The notes under the pieces were generated by a model. That model was not told where the DNA came from, did no database searches, and saw only the letters and a list, made by a program, of their open reading frames with translations. A stretch of DNA of 35,185 bases from Candidatus Eiseniibacteriota bacterium (GTDB lineage Bacteria; Eisenbacteria; RBG-16-71-46), in NCBI GenBank assembly GCA_025357055.1, contig JANXPZ010000011.1, positions 1 through 35,185 on the forward strand, read 5' to 3'. The position numbers were made by a program, and so were the translations under genes. Shown one piece after another: positions 14,856 to 21,527 of this stretch. Each line of letters begins with the position of its first letter. Position 1 is the stretch's first letter.

Positions 14856-16061
14856 TCACGGCAGCAGCCTGGCCGCCCCCAGCACCGCGAGGCCCGCACC
14901 GCTCACCCAGAGCGCAGCGCGCGCCGGCAGGGGCACGCTGCGCTCGGGCCGCACCGCCGTGGGCGCGCCGAAACCCTCGCGCAACTCGCGCATCACGGTG
15001 GCGAAGGCCGCGAGCCAGCCGAGGGCGAGCGCGATGAGGAGCCCGTTCAGGCCATTCGTCGCGAGCCCGCGCGCGATCTCGAGCCAGAGGACCGCCCCGG
15101 GGGTGCCCGGCACGCCGGCCAGCGAGAAGAGCGCGTAGAGCCCGGCGAACGCGCTGAGCGGATGCCGCCGGAACAGGTGGCCTCCGGGCGCGCCCGCCGC
15201 CGGGTCCGCGGGCGTGAGGCGCGCGAGCAGCGCCGCACCGGAAAGCGCCAGCGCCAGGTGCGCGGCCCAGGGCACGAGCCAGGCGGAGACCATCGCGTCG
15301 AGTTGGCCGCGCCCCGTGGTGACGGCGAGCGCGGCCAGCGCGAGCCCGCCCTGCAGGCTCGCGAGGGTGCCCACGCGCCGCTCGGGCCGGCGCTGCAACA
15401 GGAGCGTGCCCGCGCCGGCGAGGAACGCCGCGATCGCGGCAGTGCGCAGCAGCGCACCCGCCAGCACGGCACCGTCACCGAACACCTCGAGGCCCGCGAG
15501 ACGCCGGACGAGCCACATCGCACCCAGAGCCTGCAGGGCCGCGACCGCCAGCGGCGCGAGCGCCGCGGACGCGCCCTGGAACAGATCGGCCACCCAGAAA
15601 TGGAACGGCGCGCCACCCAGCAGCACCACGCCCCCGAGCAGCGCGAGCGGCAGCGCCACCGCCCACACCATGCGCTGCGAGAGCCCCAGCCGCAGGACGC
15701 TCCACTGTTCGGGCGGCGCGGTCACGCCGGTGGCGAGCGCCAACAGCGCGACCCCCACGGCGGTGAGGGCGAAGGCACCGCCCAGCACCCAGACGAGCTT
15801 CAGCGCGCACTCGCCGGGGAGCGGGTCCGGGCGCTCGCGGGCGAGCCCGGCGGCGACGAGCGCGGCCACCAGCGGCGCCAGGATCCAGCTGGCCGCATCG
15901 AGCCACGCGAGCGCCAGCGCACAGGGCACGAGCACGAGCAGCAGACCCAGCGAGCCGGAGAGCGGGCGCTGCCGGCGCTCGGACGCGAGCAGGAGCAGGG
16001 CCGCGACCAGGGCGAGCGCCACCGGCAGGGCGGGATCGGCGAGCACGGCGCGCGCGCTCAT
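14856..16061 (-). CDS. Divergent NuoN-like proton-antiporter membrane subunit
   Basis: A 401-residue protein with about 11-12 transmembrane segments. GGAPFHFWVADLFQGASAALAPLA matches the family hallmark PFHFW.PDVY.GAP.P, and GECALKLVWVLGGAF matches the EA.IKY..LGAF segment of NuoN. These subunits form proton or sodium channels in complex I and related complexes. Two key positions look changed. The lysine in the helix after the hallmark (usually AxxKIA) is Gln (AALQALG). The Glu of the upstream helix (usually IELISL) aligns with Ala or Ser. The gene's start overlaps the stop of the preceding gene by 4 bases. It is the last of four same-strand genes. No quinone-reducing or NADH-binding partner lies in this window. 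Confidence 0.75.
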   Translation of the reverse strand: MSARAVLADPALPVALALVAALLLLASERRQRPLSGSLGLLLVLVPCALALAWLDAASWILAPLVAALVAAGLARERPDPLPGECALKLVWVLGGAFALTAVGVALLALATGVTAPPEQWSVLRLGLSQRMVWAVALPLALLGGVVLLGGAPFHFWVADLFQGASAALAPLAVAALQALGAMWLVRRLAGLEVFGDGAVLAGALLRTAAIAAFLAGAGTLLLQRRPERRVGTLASLQGGLALAALAVTTGRGQLDAMVSAWLVPWAAHLALALSGAALLARLTPADPAAGAPGGHLFRRHPLSAFAGLYALFSLAGVPGTPGAVLWLEIARGLATNGLNGLLIALALGWLAAFATVMRELREGFGAPTAVRPERSVPLPARAALWVSGAGLAVLGAARLLP

Positions 16062-17392
16062 CGCAGCAGGGGCAGCAGGATGGCCAGCACGGCCACACCG
16101 ACCAGGAAGAGCACGTACTCCTGGGCGTCACCGGTGTGCAGGTCGCGCAGCGGGGCGGCGAGCACCCGCACCAAACGCTCCGCTCCCGAGACCAGCGCGC
16201 GCTCGAGACCGATCACGAGGCGGAACAGGCGACGCGCGGCGTGCTGGGCGATCCGGTCGGCGAGCGCCCCGCGTCCGGCCTCGGCGGGGTGCACGGAGAG
16301 CAGGCCGAGCGCCCCGCCCAGGACCGCGGGCACGAGCGCGAGCAGGGCGAAGAGCGGCCTCGGCGCGAAACCCACCCACCACGCGCTCGCCAGCGCCATG
16401 GGCACGCCCCCGAGCAGCACGACCGGGGCGATCCGGCTCGGGGTGAGCCAGGAGACCGGCCGGGCGAGCGCGCGGCGCTCGGGGGCCTCGACCAGGCGGG
16501 CCACGTTCACCCACGACGCGAGCGCGATCGGGATGCCGCCGCAGACCAGCGTGAGGACAGCGCGGCGCGGGCTCAGGTCACCCGCGGCGGCGAGCAGCGG
16601 CCAGCCCAGCGCGGCGGTCGAGATCCACGAGGTCATGCGCCACAGCATCGCCATCACCGGGCCGCGGCGCGGGGCCGCCCCGCCGAGTTCGGCGGCCAGC
16701 AGGTAGGCGTGCGTGCCGCAGGCGCCGATCCAGAGCACCGCCGCGACCCAGAGCGGGACCGCACCGCTCGACAGGAGCACGCCCGCCAGCGCGCCGTCGA
16801 AGACCACCAGCCAGCGCAGTCCCGCGGTCCAGCGCCGCCGCCCGTAGGCCCGCAGCGCGGCCAGTGCCGCCGTGAGCAACAGCAGGACCGCGGCCCCCTC
16901 GCGCACCTCGTCCACGTCCAGCCAGCGCGGCGCCTGGCGCCAGAGCAGCAGGAAGCCCGCCGCGGGCAGCAGGGCCGGCAGCCACGCGCCGTGCGCGAGC
17001 AGCGGGCCCGGCAGGTCCGAGAACGGCCGGGCCAGCGGGAGCGCCGCCAGCAACTCGAGCGCGGCCCAGACGATCGCGATGGCCTCGACCCGTGACCAGA
17101 ACGCGAGCGCGGCGGGCGGCATCGGGAAGCCGGCGGCAGGCCCGAGCAGCGCCACCTCGATGGCCGCCGCCAGCCACAACGCGGTCGCCGGGCGGCGCAG
17201 CCAGCCCCAGCGCGGCACCTGGAACGCGGGCTCGTCGCTGGCGCGGGCCCACCACCAGAATCCGGCCGCGAGCAACTCGACCCCGAGCGCGGGGGCGAAC
17301 CGCGCGGGCATGGCGACGAGCGCGAGCCCGGCCGTGCACAACAGCCCGCCGGCGGGGAGAGGTCCGGGGACCAGGTGGCTCAGGAGGCGCAT
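16058..17392 (-). CDS. Divergent polytopic membrane protein, NuoL/antiporter-like
   Basis: A 444-residue protein with about 12 hydrophobic segments. The family is less clear than for its neighbours. The C-terminal region (ERALVSGAERLVRVLAAPLR, then DLHTGDAQEYVLFLVGVAV) resembles the tail of NuoL-type subunits, where a helix is followed by LQTG..Q.YA. Its position between NuoN-like and NuoK-like genes agrees with that. The usual core motif with GPTPVSALIHAA is not visible, so any channel would be much altered. Stop and start overlap the next gene by 4 bases (ATGA), and the start is 3 bases after the previous stop, which implies tight translational coupling. Confidence 0.55.
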   Translation of the reverse strand: MRLLSHLVPGPLPAGGLLCTAGLALVAMPARFAPALGVELLAAGFWWWARASDEPAFQVPRWGWLRRPATALWLAAAIEVALLGPAAGFPMPPAALAFWSRVEAIAIVWAALELLAALPLARPFSDLPGPLLAHGAWLPALLPAAGFLLLWRQAPRWLDVDEVREGAAVLLLLTAALAALRAYGRRRWTAGLRWLVVFDGALAGVLLSSGAVPLWVAAVLWIGACGTHAYLLAAELGGAAPRRGPVMAMLWRMTSWISTAALGWPLLAAAGDLSPRRAVLTLVCGGIPIALASWVNVARLVEAPERRALARPVSWLTPSRIAPVVLLGGVPMALASAWWVGFAPRPLFALLALVPAVLGGALGLLSVHPAEAGRGALADRIAQHAARRLFRLVIGLERALVSGAERLVRVLAAPLRDLHTGDAQEYVLFLVGVAVLAILLPLLR

Positions 17393-17395
17393 GGC

Positions 17396-18049
17396 TCAGT
17401 CATGCAGGTCGTGGGCGTCGCCCACCCACGCCGAGCCGGCCGTGGCGACGCGCACCGCGCCGATCCGCGCCGCCAGCACCACCACCAGCGTCGTGGCGAC
17501 GAGCGGCAGTCCATCGGGGGGCGCGCCGCCGGTCGTCACCACGGTGCGCACCGCGCCCTGCAGCGACTGCAGGCCGAGGCCCATCGCGGCGAAGGCGGTC
17601 GCGGCGCGCACGGTGTGACGGCGCAGCATGAGATGCAGGAAGCCGAGGCTGACGAGCATCACCCCGAAGGAACACTGCCGCGTCAGCGCGGCGTCGAGGT
17701 CGAGACGCGCCACTCCCGCGATGAGCAGCGCCAGCAGCGCCGCGCCAAGCAGCAGCCCCACCGTCCCCGACTCGAGCCCCCCCAGCCCCGCGCTGGAGCG
17801 CGCCGCGCGGCTCGAGGGCAGTCCCGCGCGCCAGGCGATCGCCAGCCAGAGCAGCATCCAGCCCGCCGTGACCCAGCCGGAGTCCCCCGAGCCACGCAGG
17901 AACGGGAGCGAGAGCGCCAGGCCCAGCGTGGCAAGCCGCGCCATCACGCGGCCGGGCGCCAGCACCGCGACCAGCAACAGCGCGGCGGGCACGCCGAAGC
18001 GCAGCAGGTCGAGACGTGGCAGCGCCGCCCAGGCATCGAGGAAGTGCAC
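17396..18049 (-). CDS. NuoK/HyfE-like membrane protein
   Basis: A 217-residue protein starting at GTG, with GGGGGA about 6 bases upstream. It has about seven hydrophobic segments. The C-terminal 100 residues resemble NuoK/MnhC/HyfE-type subunits: a helix (FGVMLVSLGFLHLMLRRHTV), a second (AATAFAAMGLGLQSLQGAV) and a third (LPLVATTLVVVLAARIGAV). These align with the three-helix core of that family, although the membrane-buried glutamates of NuoK are not obvious. The N-terminal half is extra. It lies 37 bases downstream of the PTS EIIA gene and 3 bases upstream of the next gene. Confidence 0.55.
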   Translation of the reverse strand: MHFLDAWAALPRLDLLRFGVPAALLLVAVLAPGRVMARLATLGLALSLPFLRGSGDSGWVTAGWMLLWLAIAWRAGLPSSRAARSSAGLGGLESGTVGLLLGAALLALLIAGVARLDLDAALTRQCSFGVMLVSLGFLHLMLRRHTVRAATAFAAMGLGLQSLQGAVRTVVTTGGAPPDGLPLVATTLVVVLAARIGAVRVATAGSAWVGDAHDLHD

Positions 18050-18086: not shown

Positions 18087-18560
18087 TCAGCCCTGCGGGA
18101 TGGAGGGGCTCTCGCCGCTCCGGATCACCGCCAGGAACTCCTCCGGGTTGCGCGCCTCGAGCAGGCCCTGGCGCACGGAGTCGTCCTTCAGCAGGCGCGA
18201 GATGTTCGCGAGCAGCCGCACGTGCGGCGTGGTGGCGTTCTCGGGCGAGACCAGCAACACGAACAGGTGGGTCGGCTGGCCGTCCTCCGACTCGAACTCC
18301 ACGCCCTCGGGCGAGATGCCGCAGGCGGCCGCCATGCGGTCCACCGAGCGGGCCTTGCCGTGCGGGATGGCCGCGCCGGGGAAAAGCCCCGTGGACATCA
18401 TGGCCTCGCGCCGCAGCACCCGGTCGAGGATCTCGCCCTGGCTCGCGAAACCGTGGCTGGACTCGAGCAGCTCCACGAGCTCGACCAGCACTTCACGCTT
18501 GGCGTGGCCCTTCAGGCGCAGGCTGATCGCGTTCGGATTCAGGAGTTCGGAGAGCATCAT
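18087..18560 (-). CDS. ptsN-like: PTS EIIA-type (PtsN-like) regulatory protein
   Basis: A 157-residue single-domain EIIA of the fructose/mannitol/Ntr type. The phosphorylation-site motif is STGLFPGAAIPHGKA, with His67 as the expected phosphoacceptor. LLVSPENATTPHVRLLANIS also fits the family, where the HVRLLANIS histidine helps shape the site. There is no sugar-specific IIB/IIC domain nearby, so it is likely regulatory. PtsN proteins are known to control potassium transporters and sensor kinases. The start is ATG 18560 or the next codon. It is the first gene of the minus-strand unit with the antiporter-like genes, suggesting it regulates them or responds to the same signal. Confidence 0.88.
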   Translation of the reverse strand: MMLSELLNPNAISLRLKGHAKREVLVELVELLESSHGFASQGEILDRVLRREAMMSTGLFPGAAIPHGKARSVDRMAAACGISPEGVEFESEDGQPTHLFVLLVSPENATTPHVRLLANISRLLKDDSVRQGLLEARNPEEFLAVIRSGESPSIPQG

Positions 18561-18790
18561 GGCGCGGGATACTCCGTGGCAGCCGTGCAGCGCAGGTCGG
18601 AACCCGCACCGTATCGGCCGTCGTCGCGGGGTGTCAAGCCGCTTCAAATTCACGTCGCGCGGCGCGCCTCCGGCCGCATCCGGCGCGTTTCTGCTTGCCG
18701 CCCGCGGGGCCGCGGCCTACTCTGCACCGGATCGTTTCGCGCCAGGCTGTCCGGGCCTGCGCCCCCCCCAGGCCCCACCCCGAGGTGCAC

Positions 18791-20107
18791 GTGTACTGGC
18801 TCAGCAAGAGCATCCACAAGCTCTCGCGCTTCCGGCGGCAGCTGACGATCTTCACCGCCGTGCTGGGCCCGGGCATCATCACCATGGTGGCCGACAACGA
18901 CGCCGGCGGCATCTCCACGTATGCCGTGACCGGGTCGAAGTACGGCTTCAGCCTGCTCTGGATCTTCATCCTGCTGGTCCCGATCGCCTACTACATCCAG
19001 GAGATGACGGTGCGCCTGGGGGCGGTCACCAAGCGCGGACACGCCGAGGCCATCTTCGAGGGTTTCGGCCCGGTCTGGGGCTGGTTCTCGCTCTTCGACC
19101 TGGCGATCGTCAACTGGCTCACCCTGGTGACCGAGTACATCGGCATGATCGCGGCGGCGAGCATCTTCGGGGTGCCACCCCTGGTCACGTTCCTGGGCGT
19201 GACGGCCATCCTCTTCATGGTGGTGCTGACCGGGCGCTACTGGACCTTCGAGAAGCTGACGCTCTTCTTCTGCGTCTTCAACCTGGTCTACATCCCGGCG
19301 GCGCTGTGGGCCATGAACGCTCCCGGCGCGCCGGGCTGGAACAAGGTGTTCGACGGCTTCTACCGGCCCGAGATCCCCGGCGGGTTCACCCCGGGGCTCA
19401 TCTTCATCCTGCTGGCCAACATCGGCACCACGATCACCCCGTGGCAGGTGTTCTTCCAGCAGAGCTCCGTCGTGGACAAGGGGCTCGACATCCACGACGT
19501 GCGCTTCGGCAAGTGGGACACGCTGGCCGGCGCGATCATCACCTGCGTGGTGGCCGTGTTCATCATCATCGTCACCGGGGCGGCCCTGCACTACCACCAG
19601 CCCCCGATCGTGATCGAGGACGCCGCACAGACCGCCGACGCGCTGGTGCCGCTCCTGCCCCACGGGCAGGGCCAGCTGGCCCGGCAGCTCTTCGCCATCG
19701 GCCTGTTCGACGCCGGATTCCTCGGGGCCCTGTGCATCTCGCTGTCCTCGTCCTGGGCGATGGGCGAGGTCATGGGCTGGGCGCACTCGCTCAACAAGAG
19801 CGTGCGTGACGCGCCCTGGTTCTACCTCGCCTACCTGGGCATGCTGCTGACCAGCGGGGCCGTGGTGCTCATCCCGGGCGCCCCGCTCGTGACCATCACC
19901 ATGTACGTCCAGGTCGTGGCGGTGACCCTGCTGCCGGTCGCGCTGGTGTTCCTCATCCTGCTCCTCAACGACGAGGGCTTCATGGGGAAGCACGTCAATA
20001 CGCGCTGGCAGAACATCGTCAACTGGAGCATCGTGATCGGCATCGTGATCGTCTCGACGCTCTTCGCGTTCAGCACCCTCTTCCCGGGGCTCTTTCCCAG
20101 CTCCTGA
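18791..20107 (+). CDS. NRAMP-related divalent metal transporter
   Basis: A 438-residue membrane protein of the NRAMP fold. GTG at 18791 is chosen because GAGG lies 5 bases upstream; longer upstream versions add only a Pro/Arg-rich stretch. The first helix has GPGIITMVADNDAGGISTY. The classical NRAMP metal site there is DPGN; here it reads DNDAGG (35-40). In the sixth helix the usual A.xMPH motif is IGTTITPWQ (211-219), without the metal-binding methionine. Loss of that methionine is known for NRAMP-related magnesium transporters, which favour hard ions such as Mg2+ and Mn2+. The next gene encodes an MgtE-type Mg2+ sensor, which supports Mg2+ as substrate. The family is secure; the ion is inferred. 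Confidence 0.88.
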   Translation: MYWLSKSIHKLSRFRRQLTIFTAVLGPGIITMVADNDAGGISTYAVTGSKYGFSLLWIFILLVPIAYYIQEMTVRLGAVTKRGHAEAIFEGFGPVWGWFSLFDLAIVNWLTLVTEYIGMIAAASIFGVPPLVTFLGVTAILFMVVLTGRYWTFEKLTLFFCVFNLVYIPAALWAMNAPGAPGWNKVFDGFYRPEIPGGFTPGLIFILLANIGTTITPWQVFFQQSSVVDKGLDIHDVRFGKWDTLAGAIITCVVAVFIIIVTGAALHYHQPPIVIEDAAQTADALVPLLPHGQGQLARQLFAIGLFDAGFLGALCISLSSSWAMGEVMGWAHSLNKSVRDAPWFYLAYLGMLLTSGAVVLIPGAPLVTITMYVQVVAVTLLPVALVFLILLLNDEGFMGKHVNTRWQNIVNWSIVIGIVIVSTLFAFSTLFPGLFPSS

Positions 20108-20119
20108 CGGGACGTGTCC

Positions 20120-21409
20120 ATGACCGCGACCAACCAGAAGAGCCTGAAGAACCTCGAGCTGCCGGGCGAGTTCCGGTTCCTCTATTTCTCGCAGCTCATC
20201 CACCGGCCGGTCTGCAAGGGCAAGATCCACGACCGGATCGGCAAGGTGTCCGACCTGGTCTTCTCGCTCAGCGAGCTCTATCCCGAGGCGGTGGGGATCT
20301 ACCTCGAGCATGGCTGGGGCAAGCCCACCGAGTTCGTGCCCTGGAAGCGCGTGCTGCGCATCGAGGACGACGCCATCTTCGTGCAGCCCCCCGAGGAGGG
20401 CGAGGTCTATCCCCCGTTCGTGGACCAGCCGGGCTGGATGCTGGTCGAGAACCACCTGGTGGGACGCACCATCCTCGACATCGATGGCCGGCGCGTCGAG
20501 GCCGTCAACGACGTGCAGCTGCTGGAGAGCCGCGGTCGGCTGGCCGTCGTGCACGTGGACACCTCCTTCAACGGCTTCCTGCGCCGCTGGCACCTGGGCT
20601 GGCTCCAGCTCTTCAAGGAGAACCTGATCGCCTGGAAGTACGTCCAGCCGCTCAACGTCGAGGACGCGGTCACCACCGACAAGGTGCTGCTCTCGGTGAC
20701 GCGCAAGCAGCTCGTGGACCTGCCGCCCGAGGACCTCGCGGACGCGCTCGAGGAGCTCTCCGGCAAGGAGCAGGAAGCGCTGTTCTCGGCGCTCGACTCG
20801 GAGACCGCGGCCGAGGCGCTGCTCGAGGCCGAGCCGCGCGCGCAGCGGCAGATCATCGCCGACATGCGCGAGGAGCGGGCCCGGGCCGTGCTCTCGGAGA
20901 TGAACGTGGCCCAGCTCGCCGACCTCTTCACGGTGTTGCCCCACGCCCACGTGACCGAGCTCACGAAGATGCTGCCCACCGAGACCGCGCGCCGGCTGCA
21001 CGCCATCCTCTCGGAGCGCGAGGTCACGGCCCATTCGCTGATGACTCCGGACTTCCTCGCGGTCGGCAAGGAGAGCCGCGTGGGCGAGGTGCTGGGCGAC
21101 ATCCGCCGCTCCGGCCGCGAGGCCGACAGCATCTCCTATGTCTACGTGGTCGAGGGCGAGGAACGGGTGCTCGAGGGCGTGGTGGACCTGCGCGACCTGG
21201 TGCTGGCGCAGGACGACGCGCTCATGGGCGACATCATGGTCTCCCCGGTCGTGAGCGCCGAGGCCGAGGACCTGCGGGACGACCTGCAGGAGCTGTTCGT
21301 GAAGTACCACTACCGGCTGCTGCCGGTCGTGGACCACCGCGACCACCTGCTCGGCGTGGTGCGCTACAATGAGGTCATGAAGGGCGTCGTGACCAAGGTG
21401 AGGACGTGA
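20120..21409 (+). CDS. PRC-barrel / MgtE-N / CBS protein without MgtE channel
   Basis: A 429-residue soluble protein. About residues 15-95 and 105-165 look like PRC-barrel-type beta domains (IHDRIGKVSDLVFSLSELYP; LVGRTILDIDGRRVEAVND). About residues 190-300 match the MgtE N domain, a superhelix of short repeats (LPPEDLADALEELSGKEQEA; MREERARAVLSEMNVAQLAD). About 300-429 form a CBS pair (HSLMTPDFLAVGKESRV; MVSPVVSAEAED). In MgtE these parts gate a Mg2+ channel, but here the C-terminal transmembrane domain is absent. It begins 12 bases after the NRAMP-related gene, so it likely regulates that transporter in response to Mg2+ (inference). An alternative GTG start lies 6 bases upstream. Confidence 0.88.
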   Translation: MTATNQKSLKNLELPGEFRFLYFSQLIHRPVCKGKIHDRIGKVSDLVFSLSELYPEAVGIYLEHGWGKPTEFVPWKRVLRIEDDAIFVQPPEEGEVYPPFVDQPGWMLVENHLVGRTILDIDGRRVEAVNDVQLLESRGRLAVVHVDTSFNGFLRRWHLGWLQLFKENLIAWKYVQPLNVEDAVTTDKVLLSVTRKQLVDLPPEDLADALEELSGKEQEALFSALDSETAAEALLEAEPRAQRQIIADMREERARAVLSEMNVAQLADLFTVLPHAHVTELTKMLPTETARRLHAILSEREVTAHSLMTPDFLAVGKESRVGEVLGDIRRSGREADSISYVYVVEGEERVLEGVVDLRDLVLAQDDALMGDIMVSPVVSAEAEDLRDDLQELFVKYHYRLLPVVDHRDHLLGVVRYNEVMKGVVTKVRT

Positions 21410-21416
21410 GGCAGCC

Positions 21417-21527
21417 ATGCCCCCGGTGAAGATGACCAAGGGCAAGCGTTTCGCCCTGTACTTCCTGCAGTTCTACCTGCTCTTCCTCTTCCTGCTGCTG
21501 GTCCTGCGCTTCACGTTCTTCCGCTAG
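21417..21527 (+). CDS. 36-residue single-span membrane protein
   Basis: This short gene starts at ATG 21417, 8 bases after the stop of the MgtE-N/CBS gene, with GAGG 5 bases upstream. It encodes MPPVKMTKGKRFALYFLQFY followed by LLFLFLLLVLRFTFFR. The layout is a basic N-terminus, one strongly hydrophobic helix rich in Leu and Phe, and a basic end. Position, ribosome-binding site and clean amphipathic composition argue that it is real. It could be a small subunit or regulator of the NRAMP-related transporter, like other bacterial micro-membrane proteins. It is too short to assign by family. Confidence 0.7.
   Translation: MPPVKMTKGKRFALYFLQFYLLFLFLLLVLRFTFFR

Follow-up and report, generated by a model that had tools for sequence, protein, structure and literature searches.

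A single-helix microprotein as constant partner of a separate lineage of NRMT-type transporters, with an MgtE-like putative sensor as its optional companion

In this study, we analysed a stretch of 35,185 nucleotides from a Candidatus Eiseniibacteriota genome (the window) and found that a 36-residue membrane microprotein, here called mu, is the constant partner of an NRMT-type transporter (T), and that a soluble MgtE-like protein (S) is the optional one. This reverses the emphasis of the first-pass annotation of the same DNA, which had centred on a detached MgtE-type sensor paired with a different transporter fold and had cast the small protein as a possible membrane link. The new element is mu, which is apparently uncatalogued. 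Taken as a whole, the locus is best explained as encoding an Mg2+ importer with mu as small subunit and S as cytosolic Mg2+ sensor, a reading that we consider reasonably probable.

The three genes lie on the plus strand, exactly where that annotation had placed them, in the order T (18791..20107), S (20120..21409) and mu (21417..21527). The gap between T and S is 6-12 nt, depending on the start of S, for which an alternative in-frame GTG is present at 20114, and the gap between S and mu is 7 nt. A GAF-GGDEF gene follows about 0.2 kb downstream of the operon. Directly upstream of T is a divergent gene of the PtsN/fructose-type EIIA kind (18087-18653, minus strand), beyond which two genes on that same strand (17396-18049 and 16058-17392) encode proteins without a Pfam match.

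T is a protein of 438 amino acids with a GTG start, and its sole Pfam domain is Nramp (PF01566, E=1.3e-72). The canonical Nramp/MntH motifs, DPGN in TM1 and GA(T/V)xMPH in TM6, are replaced by DNDAGG and GTTITPWQ, respectively. The absence of the classical metal motifs had been noticed in the first-pass annotation (DNDAGG for DPGN, TPWQ for the methionine motif), and the replacing residues correspond to a published signature. Ramanadane et al. (2022; PMC8806188) gave DxxG-TxxA/T as the binding-site signature of NRMTs; in T, the DxxG half is D37-A-G-G40 within TM1 segment DNDAGG (residues 35-40, 18893..18910, plus strand), and the TxxA/T half is T213-T-I-T216 within TM6 segment GTTITPW (residues 212-218, 19424..19444, plus strand). 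The closest solved relative of T was EleNRMT (7qia, E=2.4e-61), with the runner-up at 1.7e-15. The AlphaFold model of a clade II homologue (L104), built as a read-through fusion of T into mu, gave EleNRMT structures 7qji/7qia as top Foldseek matches (TMt 0.88); in this model T was confident and the mu helix moderate, with a pLDDT of about 72. In the tree, the mu-bearing clade and EleNRMT both fell outside the canonical Nramps (100% support), yet in separate lineages.

NrmT was introduced as a new class of Mg2+ importer by Shin et al. (2014; PMC4072509), who reported that most NrmT genes neighbour a gene for an MgtE N-terminal domain, and proposed a cytoplasmic feedback or chaperone role for the MgtE-like protein. 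The pairing of a detached MgtE-type sensor with another transporter fold was borne out in our analysis, and T does adjoin such a gene; because that study had reported both the pairing and the regulatory idea, neither is new. T resembles Ca_c0685 of C. acetobutylicum and EleNRMT (PMC4072509, PMC8806188) in signature, fold and adjoining MgtE-N-domain gene, and some members of its clade share M-box control with this class. Unlike the classical NrmT/NRMT proteins, the clade of the window forms a separate branch, the sensor is encoded downstream of T rather than upstream, and mu is always found; mu is absent from the descriptions of these transporters in passages of Shin et al. (2014; PMC4072509) and Ramanadane et al. 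(2022; PMC8806188). More broadly, searches of open-access literature and selected passages of NRMT-related papers gave no mention of a microprotein.

S is a soluble sensor-like protein of 429 amino acids with an ATG start, consisting of a PRC barrel, a second barrel-like domain, MgtE_N and a CBS pair. The earlier description of S as a PRC/MgtE_N/CBS protein without the MgtE pore agreed with its Pfam matches (PRC, E=3.9e-11; MgtE_N, E=7.6e-18; CBS, E=1.1e-13) and with its AlphaFold model (mean pLDDT 88), which shows a CBS pair, an MgtE_N domain made entirely of helices and two further domains rich in beta structure, and for which Foldseek ranked 2oux and 2yvy, both cytosolic domains of MgtE, first among PDB structures. 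Site residues were mapped on the MgtE of T. thermophilus using the sites listed in PMC5882242, with an offset of 23 for the tag of the PDB construct that was deduced from chain lengths and gives E/D at all six listed MgtE sites. Within the MgtE_N domain (residues 201-298, 20720..21013, plus strand), E232 occupies the Mg7 (E59) position and D268 the Mg6 (D95) position, and both acids are kept in most relatives as well. The D247 position is Asp in most relatives and Glu in the S of the window. Neither D91 nor the Mg5 pair is retained, the Mg4/Mg5 bridging residues are mostly gone, and S terminates before the plug helix. S is like the cytosolic gate of MgtE in its MgtE_N domain, CBS pair and Mg6/Mg7 acids; it differs in lacking the channel domain and plug helix, in its added PRC barrels, and in being a protein of its own that is paired with a transporter of another fold. 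The MgtE channel domain (PF01769) was absent from the whole genome of the window. In our reading, S appears to have retained the sensing part of MgtE and discarded the contacts to the MgtE pore, since the Mg6/Mg7 acids are kept, whereas D91, the Mg5 pair and the plug helix are missing.

The 36-residue single-helix membrane protein mu (MPPVKMTKGKRFALYFLQFYLLFLFLLLVLRFTFFR) is preceded by a GAGG Shine-Dalgarno-like box (21408..21411, plus strand), which overlaps the TGA of S and lies 5 nt before the mu ATG. That mu is a real protein, as the first reading of the locus had held, follows from its homologues at the same place and from frame-specific selection. A homologue of 36 aa with 51% identity stands at the same place in a second genome of the clade (G021), and homologues were found behind every complete clade member. 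The overall pN/pS of mu was 0.48 in frame 0 vs 0.89 and 1.78 in two other frames, and in one pair of homologues (L072/L074) pN was 0.04 and pS 0.55; mu is under purifying selection. A Tyr is invariant in all 78 aligned mu rows, and the helix has one conserved face, with conservation periodicity peaking at 100 degrees (p=0.023). The charge pattern suggests that mu probably lies N-in. No Pfam or NCBIfam family matched mu. Its membership of a catalogued family was rejected, as the best candidate was a sub-threshold match of a homologue to the NCBIfam MgtR model NF033229 (13.5 bits, where the cut-off is 35), and the mu of the window did not match this model.

The distribution of mu was traced by a transporter-alignment scan of genome contigs, which gave 80 relatives in three sets; host labels are uncertain, because many contigs come from metagenome bins. 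Clade I, which is that of the window, comprises 23 loci with enough contig (including the window and G021) in the order T-S-mu, with mu mostly of 36-38 aa. Clade II comprises 42 loci in the order T-mu-S from Chlorobiota, Nitrospirota, Pseudomonadota, Bacteroidota, methanogens, Thermoplasmata and others; here mu has 55-84 aa and begins with a conserved segment of positive charge at the N-terminus (KIREINxKYxxP), which clade I lacks. Clade III comprises 13 testable loci in the order T-mu from Alicyclobacillus, Sulfobacillus, other Bacillota, Micrarchaeota, an Aquificaceae MAG and an Acidobacteria MAG, and no sensor was found in the fetched DNA. S was present wherever contigs of clades I and II had room, and mu was the next gene after T or T-S in every clade locus that could be tested (78/78), across many bacterial phyla and several archaeal groups; five loci whose contigs end too early (L034, L065, L078, L084 and L134) were left out of this count. 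The linkage of mu to T is thus independent of S. T and S are adjacent across a large clade, and the earlier proviso that the two large genes might rarely adjoin elsewhere did not come true. In some Planctomycetota (L077, L079, L080, L083), the helix of mu is followed by a long tail rich in Pro, Ala and Thr, and the protein reaches 66-88 aa in total.

A second, independent search covered 199 genomes around one from the Acidobacteriota. All 14 mu-clade loci found there had mu, two of these being weak matches beside the ENDGPS subfamily; none of the 44 classical NRMT loci in this search had mu, although S lies upstream in many of them. Three further classical loci in the phylum of the window (G020, G034, G039) also lacked mu, giving a classical total of 0/47. 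Among 31 whole genomes, every match to the mu profile at E<1e-3 lay right behind an NrmT gene, except for a short fragment in G019. This mu (C650:61-162) is on a separate short contig apart from the transporter, and therefore its T-S-mu operon was probably split by assembly. No mu was found near 24 other Nramp paralogues of those genomes (L168-L191), and the idea that mu is general cargo of Nramp loci was rejected on this result and on that for the 44 classical loci. In the tree, the mu-bearing transporters formed one clade (SH-aLRT 94 by a quick method), which includes one mu-less subgroup of four, and EleNRMT and the loci with S upstream fell outside it. T has 31 positions that the mu clade conserves and at which the classical lineage differs; this pattern is correlational, and the positions may serve as a first list of places to seek contact with mu.

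Three other Nramp-related subfamilies were observed in the course of these searches. One (L163, L164, L165, L167, L197, L247, L252) has the metal site ENDxPS/GATxTPWM, possibly for another substrate, and has behind it a weak mu homologue with the ending MWGLRIYV.... Another (L175, L178-L181, L245, L246, L248, L249, L251) has GTTISPYL in TM6 and DDDPSG in TM1 where this was read, with neither mu nor sensor nearby. The third (L168-L173, L176 and the second transporter of L130) has mostly DTDxGS/GAVIMPWM, and acidophile Bacillota carry several copies of it in each genome.

Evidence on the metal came from the regulation and company of T. M-box Mg2+ riboswitches (RF00380, 133-159 bits) were found upstream of T in five clade members, two with T-S-mu (L072, L074) and three with T-mu (L129, L130, L133), which ties the clade, indirectly, to Mg2+ in both operon forms; no M-box was found in the window. 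In the phylum of the window, the MgtE pore domain was present in 0/6 NrmT genomes vs 29/41 others (Fisher p=0.0017, uncorrected for relatedness or MAG gaps), and outside the phylum the MgtE channel domain occurred in 3 of 25 mu-clade genomes. CorA is common, and because the genome of the window also has a CorA gene, T is not necessarily its principal route for Mg2+.

Considering these results, we propose that T is an NRMT-type importer of LeuT fold, which very probably takes up Mg2+ as its main substrate and, carrying over the properties of EleNRMT, is probably not proton-coupled. The single helix of mu, probably N-in, would very probably bind T in the membrane as a small subunit. S, which we take for a Mg2+ sensor in the cytosol and which is related to the gate of MgtE, is likely to regulate T, and would do so by binding T, or T and mu together, and lowering import at high internal Mg2+. 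Several single-helix subunits or regulators of transporters (KdpF, CydX, AcrZ, MgtS, MgtR) are encoded beside, or act on, larger membrane complexes. Mu resembles them as a tiny hydrophobic protein encoded beside a larger membrane protein, but no sequence relation was found (the MgtR model was tested); by analogy with KdpF and CydX in their complexes, mu would be needed for the stability or activity of T.

It is unlikely that mu is chiefly an adaptor that tethers soluble S to the membrane beside T, as the first-pass annotation had proposed. Mu and S do co-occur in clades I and II, mu adjoins S in T-S-mu loci, and the N-terminal segment of clade II mu could bind a soluble partner; clade III, however, retains mu with no S gene in the fetched DNA, the classical NRMT lineage retains S without mu, and clade I mu lacks the segment although S is present. 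As stated, the membrane-link proposal is thus not supported. Mu is best read as a subunit of T, since the two remain together where S is absent; S, found also beside the mu-less classical NRMTs, is best read as an add-on sensor. A secondary part for mu in docking S is possible, although we incline somewhat against it. The thought that mu is untranslated, either a conserved stretch of DNA or RNA in the operon or an ORF that arose by chance, might appeal to its shortness and hydrophobicity and to the lack of any annotation found; it is extremely improbable given the frame-specific selection, the invariant Tyr, the conservation over many phyla, the Shine-Dalgarno-like box and the two alternative places that the ORF takes in the operon. 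Chance in particular was rejected on conservation and selection.

Another reading concerns the metal. The NrmT of Acidobacterium capsulatum, which has an MgtE-like neighbour, was mainly a Mn2+ transporter that rescued Mg2+ uptake only weakly, with no extra Mg2+ rescue upon co-expression of the MgtE-like gene (Shin et al., 2014; PMC4072509), and EleNRMT also transports Mn2+ (Ramanadane et al., 2022; PMC8806188). In addition, T216 and Q219 in TM6 of the T of the window stand at positions that are A and M in most relatives. T might then import mainly Mn2+ or another transition metal, with S responding to that metal. Against this stand the M-boxes of five clade members, two of them on T-S-mu operons, the lack of the MgtE pore in the phylum's NrmT-bearing genomes, and the fact that the genome of the window already carries, on C107, a canonical Nramp that has the DPGN/Met motif. 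We consider a transition-metal importer quite unlikely, and Mg2+ the preferred main substrate.

A bolder and more doubtful extension of the Mg2+ importer model is that this widespread branch of NRAMP-related Mg2+ importers consists of obligate hetero-oligomers. T would work only with mu, and in two sub-branches mu would also relay the state of the detached sensor, making a modular three-part equivalent of MgtE on a LeuT-fold carrier.

Of the classes of bacterial Mg2+ importers, NrmT is the latest to be recognised, and what its MgtE-like neighbour does has been a question since 2014. Comparison of branches that have or lack S, and that have or lack mu, makes this question testable. Reconstitution of mu-clade transporters without mu may mislead. 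Mu separates two NRMT lineages cleanly, and bears on the assembly and regulation of these transporters.
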